This document shows positions 22,322-42,780 of a stretch of 64,000 nt of DNA, one piece after another. Location: contig CALLIK010000013.1 of the NCBI GenBank assembly GCA_938009235.1, positions 1-64,000 of the forward strand, in the 5' to 3' direction. The notes beneath the pieces were generated by a model. It searched no databases and was not told the DNA's origin. It saw nothing but the letters and a program-made list of their open reading frames with translations. Position numbers and translations under genes: made by a program. How positions within the stretch are numbered: the first letter of the stretch is position 1; each line of letters begins with the position of its first letter. Source of the DNA: an uncultured Caulobacterales bacterium. GTDB lineage: Bacteria; Pseudomonadota; Alphaproteobacteria; Caulobacterales; Maricaulaceae.

Positions 22322-22335
22322 TGGCGCACCCGACA
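22322..22335 (-). repeat. Attachment-site core, left end of island A
   Basis: TGGCGCACCCGACA is identical to the 3' end of tRNA-Arg(CCG) at 42704-42717, including the encoded CCA. No other tRNA sequence is present here. It marks the distal end of the material inserted into the tRNA gene. Confidence 0.75.
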
Positions 22336-22398
22336 TGGGCGGTCTAAGAGCTTTATTTCTTAATGAAATCAATAGCCTAGAAGGTACTGGATTGTCAA

Positions 22399-22432
22399 TG
22401 TACCACAGTATTTTGCAGATTTTGTACCACAT
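22399..22432 (+). repeat. Putative arm-type integrase sites, left end of island A
   Basis: TGTACCACAG (22399-22408) and TGTACCACAT (22423-22432) resemble three copies at 33912-33945 beside integrase A and the other island end. Short repeats placed just inside both ends, next to the integrase, fit arm-type binding sites. The remainder of 22336-22615 holds nothing else I can identify. Confidence 0.55.
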
Positions 22433-22615
22433 TTGCCCAATACCCGCCTAAACCTTCGCTCTTTTTCCTACCGCTAAGCAAAAGGTTATTCGTAGCGTAA
22501 GCGAGAAACGAATGGCCTGCCTGTCCGGCGAGGACGTTGGGCCGAGGATCTGAGGCTGTGCGATGGTCATGGCCTTTCACAAGCGTGGAGCTATTCGATT
22601 TGTCTGCTTATTGTA

Positions 22616-23824
22616 TCAGCTTTCGGGGTAAAGTCGGGGAAATAAATCCTCTAAAAGCTCGCTAGGAAAACGCAAAGATACGGGGCCTTTGGGTGTGTCA
22701 GAACCGAGGAGGCCTGTTTCTATTGCGACTTTTAAGATCCGTCGCGCCGACCGTTCCGGCAATCCAGTAATGCGGGTCGCTTCACCTCTATCAAATTGCC
22801 CTCGTATCAATGCTTCTTGAAACAGAAAGAATGTTTCTGGTTTTAAGTTTTCGTTTCGCTCTACAAGTCGTTCATACCGTCGTGAAAGTCCGTCCAGATC
22901 AAACAAATCTGACATGAAAACGACTTGATCAATACAGACTTTCAAAAACCAGAGTGTGAAGTTTTGAAGAGCTCCAAGGGACAGGTTTCCACGCCCGTCC
23001 AGATCGCCTTGACGTGGCATATCAGCTGCATCCATTTTCATTTTATAGTCTTTACGGCTTTCTAGACCTCGAGCAAGACCTCGTGAGATTGACCAGAGCC
23101 CATGCGCTCCGATTCCAGCTTTCAGAGCCATGGCGTGACTCATTAACCGGCTAACTCGCCCATTCCCGTCTGGAAAGGGATGGATGTAGTTGAATCTGTG
23201 ATGAACAGCAGGGATAGCTAAAATTTTTGCTGCTGCCCCCATGGTCTCGAAACGATACCTACCTTCAAAGTAAGACATAAAATCCGCAATATGTTGACTG
23301 GATGGCGGTATGTGTCGGCCAACAATTACGTCATGTTTAGGGTCAGATCGCCATTCACCCGGCTCCATAATAAATTCTGTATGTTCGGATTTTATGATGA
23401 GCATTTCAGCGGGAGCATCTTTGTAGAAATCTTCATGCAGTTTTTTAATGAAAGCGATAGACGTTGGGTCACCCAAACGGCCTTCAAGATGCTCTTGTTC
23501 TAGTTTTATTTGAATCCTTACATGTGCTGCGGCTTCAAGTTGAAGATTACGACGTTGGTCATCCGTGTCGAAATCACCTGATAGGGCGCGTTCGATGTCA
23601 CGTGGGCGTGTGTTATGTCCTTCAATCAAGTTGCTGTAATACGTGTTCATGATGCGCACTAATCCGGATAAATTAGCTGCTGTGCTTGGGTGAAGACGGT
23701 GGCCTAGCTTAGAGCTAGATGCTGAAAGTTCTGCGAGTGCGTCTGCTATCTGTTCTGGCACAGAATCCAGTCGGGCCGGTTCAATACGGCTCGGTGTTTC
23801 GATGATGTTTTTATCTGATGTCAT
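22616..23824 (-). CDS. Fic family protein with N-terminal inhibitory motif and C-terminal winged helix
   Basis: About 402 aa. The Fic active site is HPFPDGNGR, the HxFx(D/E)GNGRxxR motif that transfers AMP (or another nucleotide moiety) to target hydroxyls. An inhibitory helix motif (S/T)xxxE(G/N) is present upstream as SNLIEG, making this an N-terminally inhibited class Fic. The C-terminal ~80 residues (EATRITGLPERSARRILK) look like a winged helix-turn-helix, as in Fic proteins that may self-regulate. The ATG at 23824 fits the conserved start better than an upstream one at 23899. Four TGGCCGAT motifs lie upstream. It is in island A, divergent from the defence operon. Confidence 0.85.
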   Translation of the reverse strand: MTSDKNIIETPSRIEPARLDSVPEQIADALAELSASSSKLGHRLHPSTAANLSGLVRIMNTYYSNLIEGHNTRPRDIERALSGDFDTDDQRRNLQLEAAAHVRIQIKLEQEHLEGRLGDPTSIAFIKKLHEDFYKDAPAEMLIIKSEHTEFIMEPGEWRSDPKHDVIVGRHIPPSSQHIADFMSYFEGRYRFETMGAAAKILAIPAVHHRFNYIHPFPDGNGRVSRLMSHAMALKAGIGAHGLWSISRGLARGLESRKDYKMKMDAADMPRQGDLDGRGNLSLGALQNFTLWFLKVCIDQVVFMSDLFDLDGLSRRYERLVERNENLKPETFFLFQEALIRGQFDRGEATRITGLPERSARRILKVAIETGLLGSDTPKGPVSLRFPSELLEDLFPRLYPES

Positions 23825-23886
23825 AATGTGATTTGATTTCGTGGCTTTGAAAATGATAGTGTCTTTGTCTGGAAGTAAGCTGGCTT

Positions 23887-24006
23887 TGGCCGATCGCAAT
23901 TGCGTTGTAATGCATTACTTTTGGCCGATTTTCAAGTTCACTAAAGTGCTGTAAAATAATAAATATTTTGAACTGCCTGAAAACATTGGCCGATTTCATG
24001 GCCGAT
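23887..24006. promoter_or_regulatory. Four TGGCCGAT motifs upstream of the Fic gene
   Basis: The octamer TGGCCGAT occurs at 23887, 23922, 23987 and 23999, all in the same orientation, within 120 bp upstream of the Fic start. It is not part of a gene I can support. The likely role is a multi-copy operator for the Fic protein's own winged helix or another regulator. Confidence 0.45.
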
Positions 24007-24193
24007 GTCTGATGTAGGTGAGTGTTTTAGCTCTCTGACTGTGCGAATTGTAACATATTTTCGAAATTTTCCTGCACTTAATTACGAGTCTGGCGGGCCT
24101 GCCTGCGCTCGTAATGGGGCGGCTCCGGCAGGACCGCCAGACGCATTTCCCGAGAGATTAAGTAGCGTTTGGGGCAGGGCGTAAATGGGAAAT

Positions 24194-24340
24194 GTGGAGG
24201 GCGAGATAAAGCAAGGTGTGCACACCTTGGGGCTAACCCCTTGTCTGCACATCGTTTTAGGTATGCACACACGCCGTTGGGATGTGCACACGGTTTTGCA
24301 GTTTTCTCATGTTTCATGGGGGTTTGCGGTGTGCACAATG
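24194..24340 (+). repeat. Left inverted repeat flanking the five-gene operon
   Basis: About 147 bp that reappears inverted at 32085-32228. Conserved blocks are GTGGAGGGC-ag-GATAAA (24194-24210), a 16-bp palindrome centred on GTGTGCACAC (24213-24228), an ACCC-type palindrome, and a 26-bp identical block (24243-24268). TGCAC-type sites occur near 24220, 24246, 24265, 24284 and 24333. It lies upstream of the methyltransferase gene, so it could be a promoter/operator region. Its inverted partner behind the operon suggests a mobile-cassette end instead. The rest of 24007-24423 shows no gene. Confidence 0.65.
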
Positions 24341-24423
24341 TCCAAATTCACACCAAAAACCTTCTCAGAGACCTAGCCCCGAGCGTTTCTCGCCAATAAA
24401 CCTCCACGTGTTGGAGGAATCAG

Positions 24424-27288
24424 ATGAATGCTGTTGAAATCGAGGAGGCCGTATCGGACCTGGTGTTACAGCCATTTGACCGTGCCGAATTCCCGTTTCA
24501 ATTCCTGGAGAGTTTCGGCAACAAACCGCTCACCCTCAAACGCCTTCGCAAAGGTAGCTCCAACCGAACGGACGTAGAGGGCGCGATCTTACAGCGCTCT
24601 AACATCCATATCCTGACAACAGAGCCGGGCGGCGTGAACGCGGGCCTCCAAGCCCTCCGAGAGTCGCCTAAGACCGCGCAGCAGAAGGCAAAGTTCATTC
24701 TCGCGACCGATGGGCAAACCTTGGCCGCAGAAGACCTCAATAGCGGTGAGATGCTGGATTGCGCCTATACGGACCTCCACAACCATTTTGGCTTTCTCCT
24801 GCCACTGGCGGGGATCACGACGAACAAAGAAATCAAGAACAACCCTATCGACATCAAGGCGACGGGGCGGCTGGACAAACTCTATGTCGAGCTCTTGCAG
24901 GACGAACGCAACAAAGCGTGGGCGAATGAGGACGGGCGAGAGCGGTTCAACCATTTCATGGCGCAGCTGATTTTCTGCTTCTACGCCGAAGACACCTCAA
25001 TTTTCCAAATCCCTGGCATGGCCCTGATTGGCGACCGACCGGATAGCTATGCAGGTCTGTTCACGGAAACCGTCCGCGACATGAGCGACTCGGACGGCTC
25101 GAATACAGACTATGTGGTGGGCGAGATTTTCCGCGCGATGGATGTCGATACGCGCGACGGCAAACGTGCAAAGGCCAATGTCAAAAGCTGGGCGGATAAA
25201 TTCCCCTATGTGAACGGCGGCTTGTTTGGGGGCAAACAAGAGGCGAGGAGTGCCGAAGGCACGACCGGGACACATAGAAATGATGTGCCCAAGTTTACCA
25301 AAATGGCGAGAACTTACCTCTTGCGCGCAGGCGAGTTGCAATGGACAGATATCAATCCTGATATTTTCGGCTCTATGATCCAGGCCGTTGCCGATGACGA
25401 TGAGCGCGGCGAGCTGGGCATGCATTACACCTCTGTGCCCAATATCCTCAAAGTATTGAACCCGCTTTTCCTCGATGATTTGAACGCGCAGCTGGAACGC
25501 GCGGGCAATAATCCGCAAAGCCTGGGAAAACTAAAAAAACGCCTCGCTCATATTCGCGTGTTCGACCCGGCCTGTGGCTCGGGGAACTTCCTCGTCATTG
25601 CCTATAAGAAGATGCGAGAAATTGAGCATAAGGCGAATGTGGCCGCAGGATATGGCGGTATCGAAAGCCAAATACCCGTCCGTAATTTTCGCGGGATTGA
25701 ACTGAAAAGCTTCGCTGCAGAAGTAGCTCGCCTCGCGCTCGTGATTGCAGAATACCAAAGCGATGAAAATTATATCGGGCAAAAGCAAGCCGACATCCGC
25801 TTCCTTCCGTTAGACACACAAAATTGGATTATCTGCGGAAATGCCCTGCGGTTGGATTGGTTGTCGATTTGTCCCCCTACAGGCGAGACCAAGGTTAAGC
25901 TCGTCGGGGATGACCTGTTCAATACACCATTGGACCAAACCGAAATCGCCTTCGACAATAAAGGAGGCGAAACCTATATTTGTGGGAATCCTCCCTATTT
26001 AGGAAGTAAGTGGCAGAGCAAATCTCAGAAAGATGACTTAAAGCAGGTTTTTGGTAACCGTACCACGAGCTGGAAGTCGCTCGATTATGTTGCCGGTTGG
26101 TTTATGAAGGCAGCGGATTATTTCACCTATACACCTGGCAGCGCCTCTTTCGTCTCGACCAATTCAATTTGCCAAGGATTACAAGTACCCATTTTATGGC
26201 CTTTGGTTTTTAATCTAGGTCATAAAATTACATCCGCTCACACTTCGTTTAAATGGAATAACTTAGCCAGTCACAACGCAGGAGTGACTGTTGTGATTGT
26301 GACGTATGGAAACAGCAGGACTGGTAACTCAGAATTATTCTCAATTGATGATTCAGGTCATGTGATCAGGAGGAATGTACCAGAAATAAATGCTTATCTG
26401 ATCGCGGGGCCTGGAATACAAATAACCCCTAGTCGCCAAGCATTGTCTGGCGCAAACTATATGGATTTGGGGAATATGCCCAAAGACGGCGGTTGTCTGT
26501 TACTATCTGCGCATGAGATGTTCACACTTAATAAGACCGATATCGAGACTAGCAAATTTGTATTTGATTTTGTTGGTTCGCAGGAGTTCGTGAGAGGAAC
26601 TGTAAGGGGCTGTCTGTGGATTGAAGATGAAGAGGTTGAACTGGCGATAAAGTCCCAGTTTATACAAAGTCGTCTAGCTGGAGTAACAAAAATGCGCTTG
26701 GAGAGCGTAGCGGAATCCACCAGAGCTTTCGCAAATAAGCCTCATCGATTTAAGCAGATACAAGGTCGAGGTAAGTTCCATACAATAGTTGTTCCGAAGG
26801 TTACTTCTGAAACCAGGCCTCACTTGCCTGTAGGATTGCTTTCAAAGCATACAATAGTTTCGGATAATGCCTTTGCATTATATGACGCGCCACTTTGGAA
26901 TATGGCATTGATAGCGTCCAAACTTCACTTGGTTTGGATCGCAACAGTCTGCGGAAAACTAGAAACGCGTTATCGCTATTCCAACACGCTAGGCTGGAAC
27001 ACGTTTCCCGTGCCGAAACTAACCGAGCGCAACAAAGCCGACCTCACGCGAGCGGCAGAGAACATCCTGCTCGCCCGCGAAGCCCATTTCCCCGCCACCA
27101 TCGCCGACCTCTATAAACCCAAATCCGACAAACATGCGGGCATGCCAGAAAATCTCCGCGCCGCCCACGAAGAAAATGACCGCATACTAGAAGAAATCTA
27201 CATAGGCAGAAGATTCAAAAACGACACAGAACGCCTAGAAAAACTCTTCGAAATGTACACCGAAATGACAACGAAAGTGGGGGCGTGA
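24424..27288 (+). CDS. MmeI-like DNA adenine methyltransferase lacking the nuclease module
   Basis: A 954-aa class I SAM-dependent DNA methyltransferase. The helical spacer (FNHFMAQLIFCFYAEDTSIF, FPYVNGGLFG) is typical of MmeI-type enzymes. The SAM motif is FDPACGSGNFL near residue 380 and the catalytic NPPY near 520, meaning N6-adenine methylation. The C-terminal ~400 residues should be target recognition. No PD-(D/E)XK motif is visible in the N-terminal 150 residues, unlike MmeI itself, so cleavage probably needs partner proteins. The stretch 25970-26960 is visibly more AT-rich than its flanks, suggesting an exchanged recognition domain. GGAGG precedes the ATG. It is the first gene of a five-gene overlapping operon. 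Confidence 0.85.
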   Translation: MNAVEIEEAVSDLVLQPFDRAEFPFQFLESFGNKPLTLKRLRKGSSNRTDVEGAILQRSNIHILTTEPGGVNAGLQALRESPKTAQQKAKFILATDGQTLAAEDLNSGEMLDCAYTDLHNHFGFLLPLAGITTNKEIKNNPIDIKATGRLDKLYVELLQDERNKAWANEDGRERFNHFMAQLIFCFYAEDTSIFQIPGMALIGDRPDSYAGLFTETVRDMSDSDGSNTDYVVGEIFRAMDVDTRDGKRAKANVKSWADKFPYVNGGLFGGKQEARSAEGTTGTHRNDVPKFTKMARTYLLRAGELQWTDINPDIFGSMIQAVADDDERGELGMHYTSVPNILKVLNPLFLDDLNAQLERAGNNPQSLGKLKKRLAHIRVFDPACGSGNFLVIAYKKMREIEHKANVAAGYGGIESQIPVRNFRGIELKSFAAEVARLALVIAEYQSDENYIGQKQADIRFLPLDTQNWIICGNALRLDWLSICPPTGETKVKLVGDDLFNTPLDQTEIAFDNKGGETYICGNPPYLGSKWQSKSQKDDLKQVFGNRTTSWKSLDYVAGWFMKAADYFTYTPGSASFVSTNSICQGLQVPILWPLVFNLGHKITSAHTSFKWNNLASHNAGVTVVIVTYGNSRTGNSELFSIDDSGHVIRRNVPEINAYLIAGPGIQITPSRQALSGANYMDLGNMPKDGGCLLLSAHEMFTLNKTDIETSKFVFDFVGSQEFVRGTVRGCLWIEDEEVELAIKSQFIQSRLAGVTKMRLESVAESTRAFANKPHRFKQIQGRGKFHTIVVPKVTSETRPHLPVGLLSKHTIVSDNAFALYDAPLWNMALIASKLHLVWIATVCGKLETRYRYSNTLGWNTFPVPKLTERNKADLTRAAENILLAREAHFPATIADLYKPKSDKHAGMPENLRAAHEENDRILEEIYIGRRFKNDTERLEKLFEMYTEMTTKVGA

Positions 27289-28343
27289 TGACACGGCTTT
27301 TTGCAGTGAGTGACAACGGGTTAGTCGAACAGAAAAAAACGGCACTTGATCGTGAAGAAAAAATTGAAAAGTGGGTCACAAATGATCTGACGCTAGTTGG
27401 GATTGACGGGATTGTAATTGGTCGACAAGTTCGAACCGCCCATGGGAAAATAATTGATGTTCTCGCAATCGACGGGGATGGAAATCTTGTAATTATCGAA
27501 CTTAAACGAGGGCGGACGCCCAGAGATGTCGTTGCGCAAATTCTGGATTATGCATCCTGGGTTTGTCACTTAACGACAAAAGATGTTTACGACCTTGCAA
27601 GGCTTCATGGCGAAGAGAATTTTGGTAAGTCCTTTAAAGGTAAATTTGGGAACCCTCCACCAGATATCCTGAACTCGTCGCATCAAATGATTGTTGTCGC
27701 GAGTGAGGCGGACGATGATACGAAACGGATTATCGAATATCTGTCTGAGCAACATGATGTTGGTATAAATGCGAGTTTCTTCAATATTTTTCTATCCGAT
27801 GGGCGTGAACTTCTAGCTACTGATACGCTTTTAGACCAAACGGAAGTGACAGAGCGCGCAGTGAAGAAAACGCGCCCACCTTGGTCTGGCTACTATTATC
27901 TGACAGGTGGGTTTGAAGAAGACCGCCCTTGGAGGGATATGCGTGAACACGGATTTTTTTCAGCTCACGGTGGAGTTTTTTATACAGGGAAACTTGATAA
28001 ACTTAAAGTCGGTGATCCCGTGTTTTACTATCAGAAACGGAACGGCTACCTCGGATTTGGACTGATTTCTCAAGAGAAACAGCACGTGAATGACTACAAG
28101 GTAGAGAAGGGAGAGCTACTTAAAGATATTTGTGATGCGCCTTATTTGACCGAGTATGTCGATGATGCAGAGAAGGCTTGTTATATTGTTGGTGTGGACT
28201 GGAAGCAGACTTTCCCTGTGAGTGAAGCTAAGTTTTTCAGCGGCATTTTTGCTAATCAAAATGTTGTCTGCGGAATTTATCAAACTGCTACTGTTGATTT
28301 CTTGGAGCAAGAGTTTGGCGTGGAACAGTATCTAAGCAAATGA
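27288..28343 (+). CDS. NucS-like PD-(D/E)XK nuclease with a PUA/EVE-like C-terminal domain
   Basis: About 351 aa. The N-terminal domain has the restriction-like motif D57-x13-E71-L-K73 (IDVLAIDGDGNLVIIELKRG) in a DUF91/NucS-type context. The C-terminal part from about residue 195 (WSGYYYLTGGFEED, VGDPVFYYQKRNGYLGFGLI) resembles PUA-like/EVE domains, some of which read modified bases. A role in recognising modified or unmodified DNA before cutting is inferred. The ATG overlaps the methyltransferase stop by one base (TGATG); a GTG three bases earlier is also in frame. The stop overlaps the next start by 4 bp. Confidence 0.75.
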   Translation: MTRLFAVSDNGLVEQKKTALDREEKIEKWVTNDLTLVGIDGIVIGRQVRTAHGKIIDVLAIDGDGNLVIIELKRGRTPRDVVAQILDYASWVCHLTTKDVYDLARLHGEENFGKSFKGKFGNPPPDILNSSHQMIVVASEADDDTKRIIEYLSEQHDVGINASFFNIFLSDGRELLATDTLLDQTEVTERAVKKTRPPWSGYYYLTGGFEEDRPWRDMREHGFFSAHGGVFYTGKLDKLKVGDPVFYYQKRNGYLGFGLISQEKQHVNDYKVEKGELLKDICDAPYLTEYVDDAEKACYIVGVDWKQTFPVSEAKFFSGIFANQNVVCGIYQTATVDFLEQEFGVEQYLSK

Positions 28344-28747
28344 CGTTTAAACGCATCAAATATTCTGATCTAAATGCCCGCCAGCAAGAGAACTATAACT
28401 TTCAAAAGGTGGCAGGTGAATTAGCCGACTACGGCTACACGTGTATAAAGCTGTCAGATGATTGGGAAGGCACCGATTTTCTAGCCGTGCATGTGAATGG
28501 CGTTGATTTTCTAAAGGTTCAGCTCAAGGGCCGTTTTAAGATTGATAAAAAATACTGCGGGAAGAACATTTTCATAGCTTTTTTGGATGGTGAAGACTGC
28601 TACATCTTTCCTCATGATGAAGTTATGAGAAAGATATTGGCTCTCGATATCATAAATGAATCTAAATCTTGGACTGAAGGCAATTCCTATTCATGGCGAA
28701 AACCGACGAGATGGGCAAAAATTCTATTGAGCGAGTACAAAATATGA
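28340..28747 (+). CDS. Small PD-(D/E)XK-like protein
   Basis: A 135-aa protein. E27 in the first helix, D46 in GTDFLAV and the Q61-L-K63 strand (FLKVQLKGRF) make an E...D...QxK pattern found in compact restriction-like and intron-type endonucleases. The rest of the core (KNIFIAFLDGEDCYIFPHDEV) continues the alternating strands of such a fold. No other domain is visible. It overlaps both neighbours by 4 bp (ATGA), so it is translationally coupled inside the operon. Nuclease activity is inferred from the motif alone. It could also be an inactive DNA-binding subunit. Confidence 0.6.
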   Translation: MTFKRIKYSDLNARQQENYNFQKVAGELADYGYTCIKLSDDWEGTDFLAVHVNGVDFLKVQLKGRFKIDKKYCGKNIFIAFLDGEDCYIFPHDEVMRKILALDIINESKSWTEGNSYSWRKPTRWAKILLSEYKI

Positions 28748-30816
28748 CCCAACCTAAAATCCCAACCAAAACGGTCGAATTCGCTCAATCTGGTGCGTCC
28801 AAAAAATCAGACGAACTTGGCATGCGAGAGATGCAAGCGCGGGCATATTCTAAACGCGGCGAGCAATATCTTCTGATTAAATCTCCGCCTGCGTCGGGTA
28901 AATCGCGAGCGTTGATGTTTATTGCTTTGGATAAGCTCCATCAGCAGGGCCTGAAGAAGGCCATCATCATTGTGCCTGAACGGTCTATCGGCGGGAGCTT
29001 TGGCAATACGGCTCTATCTGACTATGGGTTTATGATGGATTTTGAGGTCGAGCCTAAATGGAACCTGTGCAATGCGCCCGGCGCAGATGAGCCTCGCGCC
29101 AATAAATCTACCGTGAAAGCTGTTGGCGAGTTCTTGGCATCTGACGACCGCATTCTCATTTGCACCCATGCGACCTTCCGTTTCGCGTTTGAAGACATTG
29201 GTGCGGCAGGTTTTGACGAATGCCTCGTGGCAATTGATGAATTTCACCATGTTTCGATGAGCGAAGACAATGTTTTGGGCCGCCATTTGGCTGAGCTAAT
29301 TGTGCGCGACAAAGTTCACGTTGTGGCGATGACGGGCAGTTATTTCAGGGGGGATGCTGTTCCGGTGCTTTCGCCTGGTGATGAAGAGAAATTCAAGACT
29401 GTCACCTATACGTATTATGAGCAGCTAAACGGCTACGATTATTTGAAGTCGTTATCGTTGGGGTACTATTTTTACTCTGGTCTGTATTTGAATGATTTGT
29501 CTGAAGTTCTGGATTCTAATTTGAAGACGATCCTGCACATCCCGAATGTGAATGCGCGGGAGAGTACGAAAGATAAAATCAAAGAAGCCGAAGGTATCAT
29601 GGCGCTTCTCGGGACATGGAAATACAAGGACCCTGATACAGGGTTTCATGTGCTGGAAACCGAAGATGGTCGAACGCTACGCGTAGCTGATCTGGTTGAA
29701 GACGAACGCGACCGTGAAAAGGTCATGGCGTCGTTGAAAGACCCGCGCGCGAATGAAGAGCGCGATTGGGTCGATATCATCATCGCACTTGGTATGGCGA
29801 AGGAAGGCTTTGACTGGATTTGGTGTGAGCATGCGTTGACGGTTGGGTATCGCTCGTCACTGACTGAAATCATCCAAATCATCGGGCGGTCAACACGTGA
29901 CGCGCCGGGTAAAACTCACGCACGATTTACGAATTTGATTGCAGAGCCCGATGCGTCTGAGGGCGCTGTGACGGACGCCATAAATGATACGCTTAAGGCT
30001 ATAGCGGCCTCTCTGTTGATGGAGCAGGTCTTGATCCCGAATTTCAAATTCACGCCGAAGCGACCGATTGAACAGTCAAAGCCGCAAGAGGGCTTTGACT
30101 ACGGCGAGGGCGGGTTCCAAGCTGGAGGCAAGAACATTGGCGTCCGTGAAGGCGACCAAGCTGAATTCCATATCGAAATTGCAGGCTTGAAAGACCCGAC
30201 GACTGAAGAGGGTAAGCGAGTTTGCGAAGAGGACATTAAAGAACTTGTCGCGGCTGTTCTTCAAGATAAGCCAACAGTTGAGCAAGCGCTCTTTAACCTG
30301 GACGCTATCCCCGAGGAGACCACTGTTGTGCGGACGATGAATATCGTTCGGAAGCGCTACCCGAACCTTCCAGCGGAGGACCAAGAGGCGGCCAGGCAGC
30401 GTGTCGTGGCCGCCATGAATATGATGGAAGCTGCGTCTCGCGGAACGGCTGCCCTTGAAGCTGAGGGCATCGAGATCAAAGCCAATATGCAATTGCTACA
30501 AGGCATTCGAAAATTCGCTACGGATGTGCGGGACCTGGATGTTGACTTGATTGATTCAATCAACCCGTTCCAGTCGGCCTATTCGATCCTGTCAAAAACC
30601 ATGAATGAGTCTGTGCTTAGACGGTTACAGACCATCATTACGGGTAAGAAAATTAGTATTCCCTACGAGGAAGCTAGATCACTAGCCCTTCGCGCACGAG
30701 ACTTTGCCAAAGAGCGAGGACGCCCGCCGTCAATTTCTGCCAGCGATGCCTGGGAACGCAAGATGGCAGAAGGTGTCCAGGCTTTGAAACGTCACACAGC
30801 GAAGAACGCTAAATGA
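28744..30816 (+). CDS. SF2 DEAD/DEAH-type helicase of a defence operon
   Basis: About 690 aa with the order of superfamily 2 motifs: Walker A SPPASGKSR near residue 50, DEFH (Walker B) near 160, motif III AMTGSYF near 195, and motif VI IIGRSTR near 380. The N-terminal MREMQARAY resembles a Q-motif-like adenine contact. The C-terminal ~280 residues are helical and unassigned and may bind the nuclease partners. It would translocate on or unwind DNA and could pair with the methyltransferase in type I/III-like fashion. The ATG at 28744 overlaps the previous stop; an upstream in-frame ATG at 28693 lies inside the preceding gene and is rejected. Confidence 0.85.
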   Translation: MTQPKIPTKTVEFAQSGASKKSDELGMREMQARAYSKRGEQYLLIKSPPASGKSRALMFIALDKLHQQGLKKAIIIVPERSIGGSFGNTALSDYGFMMDFEVEPKWNLCNAPGADEPRANKSTVKAVGEFLASDDRILICTHATFRFAFEDIGAAGFDECLVAIDEFHHVSMSEDNVLGRHLAELIVRDKVHVVAMTGSYFRGDAVPVLSPGDEEKFKTVTYTYYEQLNGYDYLKSLSLGYYFYSGLYLNDLSEVLDSNLKTILHIPNVNARESTKDKIKEAEGIMALLGTWKYKDPDTGFHVLETEDGRTLRVADLVEDERDREKVMASLKDPRANEERDWVDIIIALGMAKEGFDWIWCEHALTVGYRSSLTEIIQIIGRSTRDAPGKTHARFTNLIAEPDASEGAVTDAINDTLKAIAASLLMEQVLIPNFKFTPKRPIEQSKPQEGFDYGEGGFQAGGKNIGVREGDQAEFHIEIAGLKDPTTEEGKRVCEEDIKELVAAVLQDKPTVEQALFNLDAIPEETTVVRTMNIVRKRYPNLPAEDQEAARQRVVAAMNMMEAASRGTAALEAEGIEIKANMQLLQGIRKFATDVRDLDVDLIDSINPFQSAYSILSKTMNESVLRRLQTIITGKKISIPYEEARSLALRARDFAKERGRPPSISASDAWERKMAEGVQALKRHTAKNAK

Positions 30817-31991
30817 GCGATATAAGCGACATTGATTTACTCAAGGAGCTCGGTGAAGACATCGAGCTTGAGAAGCCAAAGCAATACTCGCCGGAAGAGG
30901 CGCGCTTGATCGCTGGCTTCGAAGACATCTTGAAGTTTGCTGAGGAATATGGTCGCGCACCGCTACATGGGGAAGAGCGTGATATTTTTGAACGGCTATA
31001 CGCTGTTCGGCTGGATCAACTCAGAAAGAATGACAAGGCGAAATCTCTACTTGAAACTATGGATGAGCAGGGGCTTTTGAATGAACAATATGAACCTCTC
31101 GATCCAAATATAGATGATGACGCTCTTCTCGCTGAACTAGGGCAATCGGTTGATGCGGAAGCGGATGACATAACCACTCTGAGGCATGTGTCACCAGTGA
31201 GCCACCGGAGAGCTGCCGATGAAGTGGCTAATCGTGAAGTGTGTCGTGACTTTGAGATGTTTGAGCCGCTGTTCGAACAGGTGAAAGTTGATTTGAAATC
31301 AGGCGTCAGAATTACACTCGATGACACTACCCAAAATGATTTTGACCGAGGACGATTTTTTATTCTCCGAGGACAGATTGCCTACATTGCTGAGAAGGGT
31401 GAAGACTTCAAAGCGACGGGAAAAAATGTGTTTGACGCTCGCCTTCGTGTTGTCTTCGACAATGGTACTGAAAGTGGGCTGTTGATGAGATCGCTTCAAC
31501 GGTCATTCAATGACCCAAAAAACAATGCCCGAGCAATTTCAGCCCTAGAATCTGGACCTTTGTTTGGTGAGGTAGATGCTGATGAAACAGAGACGGGTAC
31601 GATTTATGTTCTCAGGTCACGCTCTGAACTTCCAGTAGTTTTACCTTTAAGAGATGTAATTTTGAAAATTGGCGTTACTGGCCAGGACGTTAAACGTCGT
31701 ATCGCGAACGCAAAAAATGAGTCGACTTATCTTCTGGGTGAGGTGGACGTTGTTGACGAGTACAAGCTCTACAATATCAACCGCACTAAACTCGAAAGAA
31801 TGATCCAAAGGATATTTTCTGACGCTCGACTTCGGATTACCTTTCCCGACCGCTTTGGAAACCCCGTTCAACCGAATGAATGGTTCCTTGTGACTAGAGA
31901 AGCTGTGGCTCGAGCGGTGGAACTTATTAAAAGCGGTGAAATTCAGCACTACAAATATGATCACAAAAAAGCGGTTTTCGAGAAAATCTAA
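30813..31991 (+). CDS. GIY-YIG nuclease (T5orf172-like)
   Basis: A 392-aa protein. The first ~230 residues are acidic and helical, unassigned. The C-terminal GIY-YIG domain begins at GTIYVLRS, continues with LKIGVT (the second motif), an arginine in KRRIANA and a glutamate in KLERMIQRIF. These match the T5orf172 branch of GIY-YIG nucleases. It probably nicks or cuts DNA delivered by the helicase. It overlaps the helicase stop by 4 bp and is the last gene of the operon, 93 bp before the right inverted repeat. Confidence 0.82.
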   Translation: MSDISDIDLLKELGEDIELEKPKQYSPEEARLIAGFEDILKFAEEYGRAPLHGEERDIFERLYAVRLDQLRKNDKAKSLLETMDEQGLLNEQYEPLDPNIDDDALLAELGQSVDAEADDITTLRHVSPVSHRRAADEVANREVCRDFEMFEPLFEQVKVDLKSGVRITLDDTTQNDFDRGRFFILRGQIAYIAEKGEDFKATGKNVFDARLRVVFDNGTESGLLMRSLQRSFNDPKNNARAISALESGPLFGEVDADETETGTIYVLRSRSELPVVLPLRDVILKIGVTGQDVKRRIANAKNESTYLLGEVDVVDEYKLYNINRTKLERMIQRIFSDARLRITFPDRFGNPVQPNEWFLVTREAVARAVELIKSGEIQHYKYDHKKAVFEKI

Positions 31992-32084
31992 CTTGTTCTT
32001 TGCCAAAGAAATCAAGAAATTTCACTTCGGAATTGTTGATCGTGTATCGACGGCTGCAAGAGGCTGATTGAGGTTTCGACCTCA

Positions 32085-32228
32085 GTGTGCACACCATTTA
32101 CTGATATAAAACATGAGGCTGCACGAAAACGGGTGCACACCACGTTTTACAAAGTGCATACCTAAAACGATGTGCAGACAATGGGTTAACCCATAGGTGT
32201 GCACACCCCCTTTTATCTTGCCCTCCAC
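32085..32228 (-). repeat. Right inverted repeat flanking the five-gene operon
   Basis: The inverted partner of 24194-24340. The 26-bp identical block is at 32154-32179 and the ATAAA-GCCCTCCAC block at 32212-32228. GTGTGCACAC palindromes are at 32085-32094 and about 32197-32206, with further TGCAC sites between. It also has ATGGGTTAACCCAT, a 14-bp palindrome. It sits behind the last operon gene and points back towards it. Nothing else is visible in 31992-32324. Confidence 0.65.
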
Positions 32229-32324
32229 GATTTTACCCAATCGTGCGTCTAACCCTCATCTAGCCTAAATTCGCCTAGCTCTCTTTTCTGGTCTAAATGT
32301 GGGTAATCGTGATAGTGTTTCGCC

Positions 32325-32519
32325 ATGTCTCAGAAACTCGAAAATGATCCAAAATCAAAAGCTACAGCGGATGATATCCGAAGAGGCATGAGGACCATGG
32401 CTAAAATCATTCGGTTTCATGGGGATGATTACTGGCCCATCATGGACCGCCTTCAACGCGAATTAGCGGCTCTGGAGGGACGAGAAAAGCTACTGAGTGA
32501 CCTTCTGCAAGACGACTAG
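32325..32519 (+). CDS. Small conserved-looking protein paired with integrase A
   Basis: A 64-aa acidic, helical protein (ATADDIRRGMRTMAKIIRFHGDDYWPIMDRLQRELAAL). I do not recognise a named domain. Small proteins of this look are often found beside tyrosine recombinases in alphaproteobacterial islands. It ends 13 bp before the convergent integrase gene. There is no strong Shine-Dalgarno sequence, but the composition is clearly protein-like. A role in integration or excision is a guess. Confidence 0.55.
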   Translation: MSQKLENDPKSKATADDIRRGMRTMAKIIRFHGDDYWPIMDRLQRELAALEGREKLLSDLLQDD

Positions 32520-32532
32520 ACGCGGCGCTTTT

Positions 32533-33903
32533 TCACTCCATTCGCGGTAGGTTTTCAATGAACGTTTCGCTAATTGGGTGGACGATTTTGAGAAGTTCTT
32601 TGTGCCGATATGCCAGTGATCCACCGTCCCCATATTGAGGTCTATTGTTCTTGTGACCCATAAGCGTGCATCGCAATCCATAGTCTAACCCAGCCTCCTG
32701 CATGCGCTTCTCGAAGGCGTGCCGAAAACTATAAATACGGTGCTTATCCGTCGGCATAAGGCCTCTACTATGGAAGGCTTTTAGCAAAGCTGCGGATAAG
32801 GAATTACCTCGATCATGATAGCGCGGGAAGCCATTTGGGGCGCGTTTCATGGCTTCTAGAGACACCCCTAACAGTGGAATATCACGGCTAGATGCAGCGG
32901 ATTTTAACTCCCGTTTGTCAGTCGGTCGAATGCGAATGTGAGGGATTTCGGCATTCAAACAGATGTTTTCTGGACGCAAATTCGCGATCTCGCTTGGCCT
33001 GCATCCAGTCTCTATTAGCGCATAAGCAATTAGCTGCGCATCAGTGTTTATACCTTCCAATGCGCTAGGCTTTAGAAGTTTTTCTCTCACCCAAATATCG
33101 GGAAAAGATGGCGTGGATTCTATTGGGGTGTTCTTAAATCGCAGCTTTCGGAACGGGTTTTCCCGCTCTTCTTCGCCTTGATAAGTCCAATATTCTCGAA
33201 AAAGTTGACGTAGGTTTCCGAGCTCTCGGTTAGCGCTGTTAGGCCTGTAACTCTTCCCGTCAGGACTGTCCGGGCGAAGCCTTTCTCCCCACCAATCATA
33301 GAAGGCTCGACCATGGGCGCGGGTAAGCTTATCCATGGTCACATTCCCACAAAGTTTCACAAAATGTTCCACAGCACGTGTCTTTGTGGCGCGCCAACGA
33401 ACGATCTGTTCAGGGGACTTTCGGCTTGTCTCACTGATACTAAGTTTGTCGCAGTAGAGTTTGAGCGCTTCGCGGATGGTATCCTTTGGCGGCTCAATAT
33501 TTCCGAAGACAGCTTCAACGTCTGACTTGCTTTCTTCTTTGCCTTCGAGATGGACAACGCGGTCTAAGATAGTCTCGAAAGGCTTCGCATTTACCAGTTT
33601 ATCCAATGGTTTGAATTCGAAGCCAACGGCTCGCGCGCGTCGTCTAGCTGACCTGTAACGGCACATTTCCGTCGATTCTTCGAAGTTACCTCCAGTCTCT
33701 TTAGCGAGTGCAGTTTCCCAATAATGCTCATCGGCATCCATCATCGCGTCTCGCCTTTCTCTGGCGATTATTAGCGAGTCTGTGTTGAGTGCGGTTTTGA
33801 TTGTGCGGCGAGTATCGATCTTTCGAAAACGTGTCGGAACGCGGCGAATGTAATACCAACGATAGCCACGCTGTTCCAAATAGTGATTTCGGCGAGTGGA
33901 CAT
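32533..33903 (-). CDS. Tyrosine recombinase, integrase of island A
   Basis: About 456 aa. The N terminus (YLEQRGYRWYYIRRVPTRF) matches a DUF6538-type arm/core-binding domain. The catalytic domain has R in ETGCRPSEIANL, the YSFRHAF box, LMGHKNN, and the nucleophile tyrosine in QYGDGG. The ATG at 33903 gives MSTRRNHY; a frame starting at 33933 would overlap the putative arm sites. It would recombine the 14-bp tRNA-Arg core, 130 bp away at 34032. Confidence 0.88.
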   Translation of the reverse strand: MSTRRNHYLEQRGYRWYYIRRVPTRFRKIDTRRTIKTALNTDSLIIARERRDAMMDADEHYWETALAKETGGNFEESTEMCRYRSARRRARAVGFEFKPLDKLVNAKPFETILDRVVHLEGKEESKSDVEAVFGNIEPPKDTIREALKLYCDKLSISETSRKSPEQIVRWRATKTRAVEHFVKLCGNVTMDKLTRAHGRAFYDWWGERLRPDSPDGKSYRPNSANRELGNLRQLFREYWTYQGEEERENPFRKLRFKNTPIESTPSFPDIWVREKLLKPSALEGINTDAQLIAYALIETGCRPSEIANLRPENICLNAEIPHIRIRPTDKRELKSAASSRDIPLLGVSLEAMKRAPNGFPRYHDRGNSLSAALLKAFHSRGLMPTDKHRIYSFRHAFEKRMQEAGLDYGLRCTLMGHKNNRPQYGDGGSLAYRHKELLKIVHPISETFIENLPRME

Positions 33904-33911
33904 GGGCCAAT

Positions 33912-33945
33912 TGTACCATAGTTTGTACCCCAAAATGTACCATAG
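33912..33945 (+). repeat. Putative arm-type integrase sites, right end of island A
   Basis: TGTACCATAG at 33912 and 33936, with TGTACCCCAA at 33924, are spaced 12 bp apart just upstream of the integrase A gene. Their relatives are at 22399 and 22423, inside the left end. They may also serve as integrase autoregulation sites because they overlap the likely promoter. Confidence 0.55.
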
Positions 33946-34031
33946 TTAAGAGGTAGCTTGAGGTGGGTTCAGGGCAATACCAGAAAAACATAAGTTTTTC
34001 AGTGACTTACAAGAACTAAAACTCTGGAAAA

Positions 34032-34045
34032 TGGCGCACCCGACA
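34032..34045 (-). repeat. Attachment-site core between islands A and B
   Basis: A second exact 14-bp copy of the tRNA-Arg 3' end, with partial similarity continuing (TCGAAC occurs at the same distance as in the tRNA T-arm). It separates two divergent integrase genes, as expected for tandem integration. No full tRNA is present. Confidence 0.72.
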
Positions 34046-34165
34046 AGCGTCGAACTAGCATCCATCTAGGTTTGATGTTGTGCAGTAAAATCAACAAATA
34101 CTACGGTTTTACTGGGATTATTGTCGTTTATAGTCCAATGTGATCTTATGACAGCCAACCATTGC

Positions 34166-34198
34166 GCTAGGCACCGCGCTGGGCACGGCTAGGCACGG
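34166..34198 (+). repeat. Putative arm-type integrase sites, left end of island B
   Basis: Three near-identical 11-mers, GCTAGGCACCG (34166), GCTGGGCACGG (34178) and GCTAGGCACGG (34188), are arranged in tandem 54 bp before the integrase B start. Two more copies lie at 42628 and 42640, inside the right end. Confidence 0.6.
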
Positions 34199-34251
34199 CG
34201 TTTGGATTTAAGTAAATCTAATCCAGCGCTTTAAGATCGAGGTGGGTTAGC

Positions 34252-35439
34252 GTGAGCGGACTTCATAAACTGACAGCAACGGGCGCAAAGGCCCTTATGA
34301 AAACTGGGCGTCATTCGGACGGTGGCGGATTATATCTGCGCGTTCAGAGCGGTGGGCGTAAGTCATGGCTATTCATGTGGAAGCGCGAAGGCGTCCAGCG
34401 TGAGGTTGGCTTAGGCTCTTTTGTCAGCGTAACCCTGAAGGCCGCCCGTCAAATGGCGCAAACCGCGCGTGAGGCGCTGGCAAGAGGTGAAGACCCAAAG
34501 ACTGCATTGCGTCCACCGACTGAAAAGACCTTTCTAGACGCGGCTCAGGCCTGCCTTAAAGCCCGCGACCTAGACAGCTTAAACCCAAAGACGAAACGCA
34601 AATGGGAGCGCACGGCTTTTGAAATCGCAAAGCCCCTTCACCGTAAACCCGTCGCAGATGTGAAACGCGAAGACATTCTGAGAATACTCACACCGATTTG
34701 GAAGAAAACACCAGAGACGGGCCGCAATGTCCGCTCACACCTAGAGATCATATTCAACTATGCAAAGGGCCGCGAATGGAGTGACGCCGAAAACCCAGCG
34801 CTATGGAAGGGTGGATTGGAAGCCGTCTTACCAGCGCTTAACCGCGCCAACGTCAAACACCATCCCGCTATGCCCTATGATGATGTGCCAAAGTTTATTG
34901 AGAGCTTGCGAGAACGTCCAGCCATTGCAGCGCGGGCGCTGGAGTTTACAATTCTTACAGCCGTAAGAACAAGCGAGGCGCTGAACGCCGTGATAGGCGA
35001 GTTTGATTTAGACGCTGGGACTTGGACCATTCCAGCGGAGCGTATGAAATCAGGCCGTCCTCATACCGTACCGTTACCAGACTGCGCTATTGAGATTGTT
35101 CAGGATATGCGGGCCGCACCTGTTTCAGACTATGTGTTTTTTGGCCAGCGCCCAAACCGCCCCTTGTCCAATATGTCTATGCTTATGCTTATGCGAAGAA
35201 TGAAGGTCGAGAACGCGGTCCCGCATGGCTTTAGGTCTACCTTTAGAGATTGGGCGGGGGATAGGACCCGATACGCAAGAGAGGTTGCTGAAGCCGCCCT
35301 GTCTCATTCAGTCGGTGATGTGGTTGAGCGGTCCTATCGACGCGGGGATGCTTTAGAAAAGCGCCGTGGACTTATGAGAGATTGGGCCGCTTTTTGCGTA
35401 GGGGATGTAACGGCAAAAGTCGTGAAGCTACATGGATGA
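34252..35439 (+). CDS. P4-type tyrosine recombinase, integrase of island B
   Basis: A 395-aa integrase of the P4/DUF4102 group. The N-terminal arm-binding domain has SDGGGLYLRV and the WLFMWKR strand. Catalytic residues include R in TAVRTSEAL, HGFRSTFRDW, ALSHSVGD and the tyrosine in ERSYRRG. It starts with GTG at 34252, after the tandem GCTAGGCAC repeats. It should act on the same tRNA-Arg end as integrase A, although the two enzymes belong to different subfamilies. Confidence 0.9.
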   Translation: MSGLHKLTATGAKALMKTGRHSDGGGLYLRVQSGGRKSWLFMWKREGVQREVGLGSFVSVTLKAARQMAQTAREALARGEDPKTALRPPTEKTFLDAAQACLKARDLDSLNPKTKRKWERTAFEIAKPLHRKPVADVKREDILRILTPIWKKTPETGRNVRSHLEIIFNYAKGREWSDAENPALWKGGLEAVLPALNRANVKHHPAMPYDDVPKFIESLRERPAIAARALEFTILTAVRTSEALNAVIGEFDLDAGTWTIPAERMKSGRPHTVPLPDCAIEIVQDMRAAPVSDYVFFGQRPNRPLSNMSMLMLMRRMKVENAVPHGFRSTFRDWAGDRTRYAREVAEAALSHSVGDVVERSYRRGDALEKRRGLMRDWAAFCVGDVTAKVVKLHG

Positions 35440-35558
35440 TAAGGCCTCACGGTTTTTGAGCGGCCTATTGGGATGAGCGCGTGAATATTGCAGATTGGTG
35501 GGCCAAAGAATTAGTGATGTCTTAAACAATGCTCTGATTTTTTTAGCTTGGAAAACTA

Positions 35559-36563
35559 ATGATAGTCCCTAAACCTACCCCAATGAGGTACCACTACGTT
35601 CGAGCTCTTTTATTTAGTCAATTCAACTCCAAAACAATTGAATCGCTTACGGGGTGGAAAGAGGCCGATGTGGGCAGGTCCAACACTGCTACCGTGCCAT
35701 CTTTTCATGGAGCCTTAAACGACGGTACAAGTTTGCGTGTAGGCTCTACAAATTTTTCCGCTCTTAGTCTGTATAGCGCCCTCGTAGCCCTTTCCGATGC
35801 AACGTTGTCTGGTAAGGTATTAGCACTAGAGAATCTTATTTCAGCAAGGCGTAAAAATAACAATTATAAAGGAGCGGTGGAATTTCCAAATTTTTTAAGT
35901 GCCGCCGATTACTTTTACTGGACAGATGTCCACACATGGACGCTAAATGAGGGGATTTTACTTAGCTTAGGGTTGAAGCCTGAAAAGCAAATTTGCCTTG
36001 ATTTCGATAAGATTTCTTCCACGCCTGATATGGAAAGTATGGTTTTAAAAGAGTTTCGGCTGCGACGTCGTCTTGGCTTCAGAGAGGCTGAACGAGGTGG
36101 GTTCAACCCTCTCCTACCAGGAACCGAGAGCTGCGTTCCGTTATTGTTATTCAATTGGTTTGAAGACGGGGGATTTCCAGTTCCTAAAGATCTCCACGAT
36201 TACCTGAAGTCGGGGGGCAAAAAAGCACTTAATCCTGAACAAGGCATGGACAGCAAAACTGAGTTTGATGAGGAAGTAAATTTAGGCGTTACCTCTATTG
36301 ATATTCAAAAGCAAAAGCCGACCGCGTTGCCCATAACTAGCCCTGTTAACCCTAAGGCTCAAACCGCTATGCTTACGATTATTCATGCCTTTGGGCAGAT
36401 GCGTCAGAATAGATATGACCCTGATGACCCACGTAATGGCGCAATATTACGGATTCAAAACGCCATTGCGGACGCTGGACTAGAAATATCTGACCGAACG
36501 CTGAAGAAATACTTGAAAGAGGCATGGGTGGAAGCGGAAAGGCTGCAAGATAAAAGTCAATAA
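35559..36563 (+). CDS. Hypothetical island protein
   Basis: A 334-aa soluble protein with no domain I recognise. The N-terminal 100 residues and the central WTDVHTWTLNEGILLSLG segment look globular. Residues about 210-260 are low-complexity. The C-terminal ~75 residues (MLTIIHAFGQMRQNRYD to ISDRTLKKYLKEAW) form a helical domain that resembles small DNA-binding or replication-accessory regions found in P4-like islands. It follows the integrase and precedes the AlpA-like regulator. Its function cannot be named. Confidence 0.65.
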   Translation: MIVPKPTPMRYHYVRALLFSQFNSKTIESLTGWKEADVGRSNTATVPSFHGALNDGTSLRVGSTNFSALSLYSALVALSDATLSGKVLALENLISARRKNNNYKGAVEFPNFLSAADYFYWTDVHTWTLNEGILLSLGLKPEKQICLDFDKISSTPDMESMVLKEFRLRRRLGFREAERGGFNPLLPGTESCVPLLLFNWFEDGGFPVPKDLHDYLKSGGKKALNPEQGMDSKTEFDEEVNLGVTSIDIQKQKPTALPITSPVNPKAQTAMLTIIHAFGQMRQNRYDPDDPRNGAILRIQNAIADAGLEISDRTLKKYLKEAWVEAERLQDKSQ

Positions 36564-36669
36564 ACTCAATGAAACAAACGGAAAATCCATATTTTGTGCT
36601 GGAATTTCCTCAGTAACAAAAAAACCGAAGCAGTTTGCATCCAACGTTAATCGTCTTGGAGCAATCACA

Positions 36670-36873
36670 ATGGACAACCCTACATTCCCCCAAACTGGCC
36701 TAGTCCGCCTCTCTCAAATTCTATCCCCACGTGGTCCTATTCCCGTATCAAAGTCCACGTGGTGGCAGGGCGTGAAAGACGGACGCTTTCCGCAACCTCA
36801 CAAGTTAGGACCGCGCACGACCGTTTGGCGCGTGGAAGAGATACGGGCCCTTTTCGAAACCGATGAAGCTTAG
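36670..36873 (+). CDS. AlpA-like helix-turn-helix regulator
   Basis: A 67-aa protein in the AlpA/excisionase-like family. It has the typical order: LVRLSQIL, ISKSTWWQGVKDGRFPQP-type recognition helix (here VSKSTWWQGVKDGRFP), and a final WRVEEIRALF. Such proteins activate integrase or act as excision factors in P4-like islands. It lies just upstream of a second DNA-binding protein and is separated from it by 9 bp. Confidence 0.8.
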   Translation: MDNPTFPQTGLVRLSQILSPRGPIPVSKSTWWQGVKDGRFPQPHKLGPRTTVWRVEEIRALFETDEA

Positions 36874-36882
36874 GCCAGAGCC

Positions 36883-37317
36883 GTGAAGCGCTCTTATGAC
36901 TTTCATCGGGTGCGGTCCCATCGTCCCTATACGGTTGCGACGCTGGCAGTGCTCTTAGGTGTAGGGGAAAGAACCGTGCGGCGCTGGATTGAACGTGACG
37001 GGCTGGACGTGGCCATCTTAGACCATTCCCGCCCCATCATCTTGCAAGGCTCTAAGGTGAAGGCTTGGGGTATAGCGAAAAAGAAAGCCAAGCGGCAACC
37101 TTGCGGCGCTGGTGAGATATATTGCGTCCGATGCAAAACCCCAAAGCGGATCAATCCAGATAGCTTTCACATCATCCAACGCAATCAATCCAAGTTGACC
37201 GTCAAAGGTGATTGCCAGACGTGCGGATTGACACTGCACCGCTTTGGCTCACCCCTAAATCGTGCGGCGCTGGAGGCCGAATTTGGTCCAAAGTGGCCAG
37301 ACAATCCAGCGGCGTGA
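36883..37317 (+). CDS. Helix-turn-helix protein with C-terminal zinc ribbon
   Basis: A 144-aa protein starting with GTG. Residues about 14-55 form an excisionase/MerR-like helix-turn-helix (YTVATLAVLLGVGERTVRRWIERDG). Residues 80-125 hold CVRC and CQTC pairs about 38 residues apart, a probable zinc ribbon. The two domains together suggest a DNA-binding accessory factor for the recombinase encoded next. I know no characterised homologue. Confidence 0.65.
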   Translation: MKRSYDFHRVRSHRPYTVATLAVLLGVGERTVRRWIERDGLDVAILDHSRPIILQGSKVKAWGIAKKKAKRQPCGAGEIYCVRCKTPKRINPDSFHIIQRNQSKLTVKGDCQTCGLTLHRFGSPLNRAALEAEFGPKWPDNPAA

Positions 37318-37379
37318 CCTGCACCTATTAGCATTCCCAATCCCCCCCTTAAATGTCCACTTGGCGAAAGGTTAAACAT

Positions 37380-38447: not shown

Positions 38448-38668
38448 CCCCCCCCATTCATCTTGTGGCCGTTTTGTCTTGGACACCCGCTGAATAGGTC
38501 CGTGCGCGATATGTTCAGTTTTCAAAGAGGGGTGTGGGGTCAAAAGTCAGAAAGACAGCCAAGGCCAGACCATTGCCCCCAGCCCCAAGCTAATCTGAAT
38601 GCAGTTTAGTCCAGATAGAGCCTTTACCCCATCTACCCGCCTGAGTAGCAATGCGCTCTGGAGGGTTT

Positions 38669-41893: not shown

Positions 41894-41898
41894 ATTCG

Positions 41899-42495: not shown

Positions 42496-42627
42496 TTTTA
42501 TTGGAATGGGAGTATTGTTGGGAGGCTCTAAATTTCGTTATCTAGAAATCTAATATATACCAAACCTCTAGGCTAATAATGCGTTGCCTCTTCTGCTTTA
42601 CGCTTAACGTCATCTAAGAACTTGCTG

Positions 42628-42650: not shown

Positions 42651-42703
42651 TTTATAGATCCTGTTAATTTGTCTATATTAAACAAGGTGTTGAGTTATTT
42701 TGA

Positions 42704-42780
<77 letters not shown>

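Follow-up and report, generated by a model that had tools for sequence, protein, structure and literature searches.

We analysed a window of 64,000 nucleotides (positions 1 to 64,000 of contig CALLIK010000013.1, assembly GCA_938009235.1, from an uncultured Caulobacterales bacterium), in which five overlapping open reading frames (ORFs), all on the + strand, form an operon: genes 1, 4 and 5 encode a methyltransferase, a helicase and a GIY-YIG nuclease of the DnmA(YeeA)-YeeB-YeeC type, and genes 2 and 3 lie between the methyltransferase and the helicase (Table 1). The overlaps of 1–4 bases described in an initial annotation of this DNA were confirmed, both as ORFs and in the junction sequences. 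TGATG at 27286 produces a 1-nt overlap with the ATG of gene 2 at 27288 (ORF start 27285/27288), and ATGA at 28340, 28744 and 30813 produces 4-nt overlaps, the helicase start at 28744 falling within a longer, mechanically called ORF (28693–30816). A GGAGGA site is present upstream of the gene 1 ATG at 24424, and scans for promoters and terminators performed no better than chance.

Table 1. Position and assignment of the operon genes and of neighbouring features in the window.
Feature	Position	Strand	Basis or remark
Gene 1, MmeI-like N6-adenine methyltransferase with target-recognition domain (TRD), DnmA/YeeA type	24424..27288	+	Pfam, PADLOC, motifs
Gene 2 (cargo gene 1), NucS-like PD-(D/E)XK protein, PADLOC candidate PDC-S11	27288..28343	+	Pfam, PADLOC, alignment
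Gene 3 (cargo gene 2), 135-aa D...QxK protein, PD-(D/E)XK-like by motif only	28340..28747	+	
Gene 4, SF2 helicase/translocase, YeeB type	28744..30816	+	DEAD, motifs
Gene 5, T5orf172 GIY-YIG nuclease, YeeC type	30813..31991	+	T5orf172/MUG113, conserved positions
Cargo slot, methyltransferase stop to helicase start	27286..28746	+	
Direct repeat TGGCGCACCCGACA, candidate att site, left end of operon-bearing element	22322..22335	+	
Fic-domain protein, same candidate element as operon	22616-23899	-	
Tyrosine integrase adjoining right candidate att repeat (34032)	32533..33933	-	Phage_integrase slightly under cut-off
Direct repeat TGGCGCACCCGACA, candidate att site between two tandem elements	34032..34045	+	
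Type ISP restriction-modification enzyme on second element	38651-41893		
tRNA-Arg (CCG), 3' end contains repeat (42704-42717)	42704..42780	-	

Gene 1 matched the MmeI_N/hel/Mtase/TRD/C set of Pfam models, N-terminal domain included, as well as the PADLOC model REase_MTase_IIG (E 2e-254), which labels it a Type IIG enzyme. Gene 4 matched Pfam DEAD and gave only weak PADLOC matches (PbeA/Cas3); genes 3 and 5 had no PADLOC match, gene 3 had nothing usable in Pfam, and none of the five genes scored above the NCBIfam cut-offs. The DEAD match and retained motifs of gene 4, together with the family match and conserved positions of gene 5, uphold the initial annotation of these two genes as an SF2 helicase and a T5orf172-like GIY-YIG nuclease. 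According to passages of two reports, the Bacillus subtilis DnmA(YeeA)-YeeB-YeeC locus encodes, in the same order, an MmeI-like adenine methyltransferase lacking a nuclease motif, an SF2 helicase and a T5orf172/GIY-YIG protein, with DnmA producing N6-methyladenine at the non-palindromic sequence GACGAG (PMC9973331, PMC7261158); the MmeI_N model also matches in the B. subtilis genome that we used as a control. Judged by domain make-up, gene order and a plasmid-borne homologue of gene 4 (61% identical) that is annotated YeeB, the core in the window is this already known arrangement, consistent with the initial view of a methylation-linked, restriction-like operon. The five-gene set as a whole has no system name in PADLOC or NCBIfam, and the initial annotation did not recognise the order as a named system, but its core is not undescribed. 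Finally, a 45-residue stretch is common to the helicase C-terminus (30637–30771) and the GIY-YIG protein N-terminus (30864–31007; hhalign E 1.3e-4, probability 53%), which is suggestive only, perhaps of a joint docking element.

Scanning a genome collection with the window helicase gave at least 586 relatives, the best 80 of which were used. Among these best 80, the order methyltransferase, helicase, GIY-YIG nuclease is present at 76 loci, while helicase and GIY-YIG genes stand without a methyltransferase match at three (two of them on contigs shorter than 4.4 kb) and a methyltransferase and helicase without GIY-YIG at one (L054); by record title, the core in this best-80 set comes from Alpha-, Beta- and Gammaproteobacteria, Bacillota, Bacteroidota, Armatimonadota and Bdellovibrionota. 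A more even draw, from the window's own class, recovered the helicase in 17 of 385 genomes (16 of the 315 of good quality), the window's own counted. Two core-type methyltransferases at first appeared unlinked to a helicase: one lies at a contig end, with the remainder of the operon on another contig of the same genome, and the second is a fragment beside GIY-YIG pieces without a helicase, a decayed remnant. On this distribution, the fixed core is three genes, those for the MmeI-like adenine methyltransferase, the SF2 helicase and the T5orf172 GIY-YIG nuclease.

Within the core, the methyltransferase has lost its nuclease residues. Gene 1 keeps FDPACGSGNF and NPPY, and FDPACGSGNF and NPP are found in about 95 of the 96 core methyltransferase rows, one row being gapped; its nuclease positions, by contrast with those of free-standing relatives, read L56/T66/P68. 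For the comparison, 15 MmeI_N loci were taken as controls, of which two (L178, L188) proved core-type and two (L173, L195) unalignable, leaving 11 free-standing MmeI-type proteins, all from genomes without a helicase match. D and E-x-K are present in 11/11 of these, whereas at the equivalent positions of the 96 core methyltransferases L replaces D in every row, E never occurs, K occurs in three and the complete set in none (0/96); an E-x-K string appears elsewhere nearby in two of the 96 rows. An alternative reading of the N-terminus, with D50-x9-N-I-H replacing D-x9-E-x-K, was rejected, as alignment with the free-standing proteins gave L56/T66/P68. The initial annotation of gene 1 as having no evident nuclease domain therefore holds for the catalytic residues and not for the N-terminal nuclease domain itself, which is kept. 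Because these residues are gone, the Type IIG label that PADLOC attaches to the methyltransferase alone is a mislabel. In the partner proteins, PASGKS, DEFH, MTGSYFRG and GFDW of the helicase are invariant in 122 rows, and Y265, G287, R296 and E328 of the GIY-YIG domain are present in 117/117 rows, positions whose catalytic meaning we take from the family consensus. With nuclease residues missing from the methyltransferase and GIY-YIG positions kept, YeeC is the sole nuclease fixed in the core.

We then compared the interval between methyltransferase and helicase across 114 loci in which both lie on one strand (77 genome contigs, 18 from the class sample including the window, 18 viral contigs and one plasmid), eight further loci without a methyltransferase match being excluded from this slot count. 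The gap is at most 100 bp in 41 of the 114, 100–350 bp in three and more than 350 bp in 70, whereas the helicase–GIY-YIG gap, −23 to 161 bp across 121 loci, never has room for a gene. In the more even class sample, 10 of 18 slots are loaded and eight empty, window included. Cargo is mostly co-oriented with the operon (102 ORFs of at least 100 aa on its strand, eight on the opposite one), the first cargo gene starting no more than 30 nt from the methyltransferase stop in 60 of the 70 loaded loci and the last ending at the helicase start in 57 of them. Clustering by BLAST, under which some families may merge or split, gave approximately 35 co-oriented cargo families of at least 100 aa, 16 of them present at more than one locus. 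Mapped onto a helicase tree built with FastTree, the empty/loaded state requires at least 25 changes, 16 of which are forced by well-supported branches, and the full cargo state requires 60; even the two closest helicase relatives among the loci compared (81–82% identical) differ from the window and from each other, one carrying Fic cargo (L002) and the other DarT-like, GmrSD and PD-DEXK_4 genes. Read from these sequences, the junction between the modification and restriction genes (M–R junction) is a single permissive slot with cargo turnover.

Scanning 31 of the 35 cargo families (29 representatives and the window's two) and accepting matches above the Pfam cut-off or with a PADLOC E of at most 1e-5, we found that 18 match defence, toxin or nuclease models: RhuM, Fic, GmrSD, PD-DEXK_4, YhcG, AlbA_2, YafQ, DarT-like, zeta toxin, HEPN, OLD-like ATPase, Tmn-like, reverse transcriptase, PD-Lambda-2, PDC-S67, DrmC-like, CoiA-like and PDC-S11, the DrmC-like and CoiA-like matches being the weakest. 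The other 13 had no clear match of this kind in Pfam or PADLOC, among them window gene 3 and the recurrent clusters 1, 4 and 10. Cluster 1, an unannotated protein of about 290 aa (for example L018:8115–8987), is the first or sole slot gene in 10/10 loci, and both plasmid loci opened for it (2/2) are islands without the core. Clusters 4 and 10, likewise unannotated, also have a first-or-only position. A joint fourth core protein among the first-position clusters 1, 4, 10 and 15 was considered and rejected, profile comparison having given nothing. Since slot genes turn over quickly, the slot offers a place to look for new defence genes, and several recurrent slot families have no Pfam or PADLOC match.

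What the slot does for its host is a separate question from how the core works. A neutral slot, in which the junction tolerates insertion and supplies a promoter to cargo that is functionally unlinked to restriction, would be compatible with the core mechanism proposed below and would account for the very mixed cargo, the 13 families without a clear match and the 41 empty slots; it sits less well with the helicase–GIY-YIG junction, which is equally coupled and without insertion in 121 loci, and with the 18 families that do match, and we consider it possible rather than likely. RhuM, one of the cargo families, separates hsdM from hsdS in a Type I system in two of four plasmid loci opened. A more speculative idea, which we would not favour at present, is that the M–R junction serves as a dedicated guard slot in DnmA-YeeB-YeeC and, in parallel, Type I operons, holding toxins and nucleases that would be co-made with and restrained by the restriction complex and would come into action once that complex is inhibited or sequestered by a phage. 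On this idea, restriction operons would be interchangeable chassis that accept two cassettes, a DNA target (TRD) and a back-up weapon (cargo).

The two middle genes of the window behave as such cargo. Gene 2 matches PDC-S11 in PADLOC over its full length (residues 5–347, E 5e-112); NucS_C (PF01939) reached 22.3 bits against a cut-off of 24 and covered residues 25–90 only, and the NCBIfam NucS model gave 33.7 of 216 bits, which places gene 2 outside NucS/EndoMS proper. The NucS-like D57/E71-x-K73 site of the initial annotation (numbered from the ATG) was nevertheless found, along with Q-x3-Y, in 9/9 proteins aligned. Its proposed PUA/EVE-like tail fared less well, an EVE match (E 0.0028, below the cut-off) appearing in one of five C-terminal pieces scanned, not the window's. 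For gene 3, the annotation as a small E/D/QxK protein was corroborated by D46 and Q61-L-K63, which do not vary across alignment A3 (12 rows); both tandem copies at L123, one of which has R for Q, are left out of that alignment. An outside relative of gene 3 weakly matches DUF4365 (E 0.022), and nothing useful came of comparing gene 3 or the C-terminal part of gene 2, by sequence, with solved structures.

Both families are rare in the slot, gene 2 in three and gene 3 in eight of the 114 core loci, window included (one of the eight, L087, having been fetched via gene 3), and they occur together in the window only (1/114). Gene 2 relatives are found in 47 plasmid records; of seven such regions opened, four adjoin BREX, Type I restriction-modification, or Type I restriction-modification plus Zorya genes, two do not and one carries no annotation. 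Four of the 385 class genomes, besides the window's, also have a gene 2 relative, and none of the four has the helicase. Gene 3 relatives were detected in four class-sample genomes besides the window's, one within a slot and three away from any core, and scans of viral contigs found no relative of either gene. The slot of L123 (~9413–10572) contains two tandem gene-3-like copies, one degenerate, beside an interrupted methyltransferase. At L120, L121 and L122, gene 3 relatives away from the core lie, by eye, among housekeeping genes, one of these genomes being 1.2 Mb in size.

The initial annotation had proposed that all five genes form one modification-gated, multi-subunit complex in which three nucleases cooperate in cutting, and had named recurrence of the five-gene order as its own test. 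Translational coupling across all five genes and the conserved residues of genes 2 and 3 described above would be expected of such a complex. The five-gene order recurs in 0/113 other loci, however, and it is the three-gene order that did recur; genes 2 and 3 each occur in other slots without the other, as well as outside the core, 41 slots are empty, and the two nearest helicase relatives bear other cargo. We consequently rejected a five-gene system on co-occurrence, and regard one as very improbable. Genes 2 and 3 instead look like exchangeable cargo, not like subunits of a novel five-gene machine, and most likely serve as accessory effectors co-expressed with the core. What appeared to be a one-off five-gene machine is thereby turned into a more general pattern, a widespread restriction core with one internal slot.

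Next, we compared the TRDs of 93 loci that have all three core proteins, the pairs among them not being independent. Helicase identity reaches 95% or more in 15 pairs. Three of these are near-copies; the remaining 12, which form about six independent groups, have TRDs 0.32–0.45 identical, the level of unrelated pairs (median 0.40), alongside GIY domains that are 0.86–0.99 identical. The converse was also seen, TRDs 0.75–0.76 identical accompanying helicases only 0.69–0.78 identical, and rank correlations were 0.74 for helicase with GIY, 0.20 for helicase with TRD and 0.21 for GIY with TRD. Cargo state differs in 8/15 pairs at a helicase identity of at least 95% and in 18/18 pairs at 90–95%. 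A nuclease that read the methylation site itself would change with the TRD, and it hardly does, which on the simplest reading makes the methyltransferase the specificity subunit for both activities. Sequence specificity thus seems to sit in the methyltransferase alone, in a Type I-like scheme with a split restriction subunit, and the TRD swaps offer comparative evidence on the open question of whether DnmA-YeeB-YeeC is Type I-like.

Taken together, the operon is probably a restriction-modification system of the DnmA-YeeB-YeeC type carrying two exchangeable cargo genes. For the steps from recruitment to cutting, and for the action of the cargo, we infer the following scheme. The MmeI-like protein would read a short asymmetric site through its TRD and methylate one adenine there; at an unmethylated site, the same protein would recruit or license the YeeB motor, which would translocate, and the GIY-YIG domain of YeeC would cut. 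Labour would be divided as in Type I systems, with a single fused polypeptide serving as both M and S and with R split into motor and nuclease, and the M–R slot would preserve translational coupling while holding unrelated co-oriented genes, many of them for defence, toxins or nucleases. If only one strand is methylated, as by DnmA at GACGAG and in the MmeI family, replication would leave one daughter duplex unmethylated at each site; a motor joining two oppositely oriented unmethylated sites could explain why self DNA is spared. Type III and Type ISP enzymes serve as the model for this two-opposed-site idea.

Several points weigh against this scheme. Low TRD identity implies a different target without proving it, and the independence of the TRD would also fit a helicase and nuclease that ignore sequence. 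This is the main alternative: YeeB and YeeC would act without reading the methyltransferase site, their substrate being, for instance, any DNA that is unprotected, modified or replicating, and the role of the methyltransferase would be confined to immunity or epigenetic marking. In addition to the near-absence of co-variation with the TRD, it can draw on B. subtilis, where dnmA deletion caused no growth defect in the passages cited (PMC9973331, PMC7261158). We judge it unlikely, given the three-gene order at 76 of the best 80 of at least 586 loci and the loss of nuclease residues in linked methyltransferases and their presence in the free-standing ones compared. The same passages report that deletion of dnmA, yeeB or yeeC left sensitivity to three phages unchanged, that dnmA deletion left plasmid uptake unchanged, and that the authors call the locus a relic (PMC9973331, PMC7261158). 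These negative phage and transformation assays would suit a decayed restriction system retained for methylation-dependent gene regulation, as argued there for B. subtilis, and one decayed remnant does occur among our loci (L206, 744–2475, where an N-terminal piece of the methyltransferase precedes fragments of GIY-YIG and no helicase is matched). Decay would not leave the helicase motifs and GIY-YIG positions as conserved as they are, and Vibrio crassostreae homologues are cited as protecting against some phages, their deletion raising phage sensitivity (PMC9973331, PMC7261158); decay of the core in general is, on this evidence, improbable. As for the slot, empty and loaded states are clustered on the helicase tree (25 changes, where shuffling gave a mean of 33 and 0/500 shuffles as low), and slot state is therefore partly inherited. 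The slot percentages are not population frequencies, because the genome sample was picked by likeness to the window helicase, L087 was fetched via gene 3, and L013 and L128 (the same contig) and L159 and L163 (identical helicases) were all retained.

The wider window suggests how the operon may have arrived. A 14-bp sequence, TGGCGCACCCGACA, occurs exactly three times in it, in one orientation, at 22322, 34032 and 42704, the last within the tRNA-Arg gene. The first interval (22322–34045, 11.7 kb) holds the Fic gene, the operon and an integrase, and the second (34032–42717, 8.7 kb) two integrases and the Type ISP restriction enzyme. This looks like two tandem integrative defence elements at tRNA-Arg, with the operon on the 11.7-kb one. 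Fic proteins recur elsewhere in our data, as the slot cargo of L002, the nearest relative among the loci compared, and beside the core on a plasmid of Acetobacter (L196).

Among known systems, MmeI and the Type IIG/IIL enzymes share the methyltransferase–TRD architecture of gene 1 (solved MmeI structure 5hr4) and differ in the catalytic D and E-x-K set, which is absent in all 96 core proteins aligned. Gene 2 matches PDC-S11, a single-gene phage defence candidate in PADLOC, and lies inside a DnmA-YeeBC operon. That defence systems can harbour further defence genes has been published before (PMC12839542, PMC12255303), and one of these reports describes auxiliary nucleases embedded in core BREX loci (PMC12839542). 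The operon would be alike in embedding auxiliary effectors, but no hallmark of BREX, DISARM or Dnd-Pbe (PglZ, BrxL, DrmA/B, Dnd) was found among its five genes with Pfam, PADLOC or NCBIfam; gene 1 partially matches DrmMI and PglX, and gene 4 weakly matches PbeA and a Dnd restriction model.

Type I systems consist of HsdM, HsdS and HsdR subunits with a PD-(D/E)XK nuclease. The operon shares with them one apparent specificity determinant for modification and restriction, a motor and nuclease module, and foreign defence genes between subunits. It differs in that M and S would be fused in the MmeI-like protein and R is two polypeptides, with GIY-YIG in place of PD-(D/E)XK; separate HsdM, HsdS and HsdR were not among the five genes in Pfam, PADLOC or NCBIfam. 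In a parallel to the slot, DarTG2 is described as embedded between hsdS and hsdR of Type I systems in an excerpt of PMC12255303. The closest likeness remains DnmA-YeeB-YeeC, with which the operon shares both a methyltransferase lacking nuclease residues and the succession of SF2 helicase and T5orf172 GIY-YIG protein. It differs in the two cargo genes between methyltransferase and helicase: the B. subtilis passages, in which a Type I-like role had earlier been suggested, put YeeB first and YeeC second downstream, describe no slot, and mention one unplaced 'uncharacterized' neighbour family (PMC9973331, PMC7261158). The core is known; no account of the cargo slot or of the specificity-swap evidence was found in the open-access literature searched.

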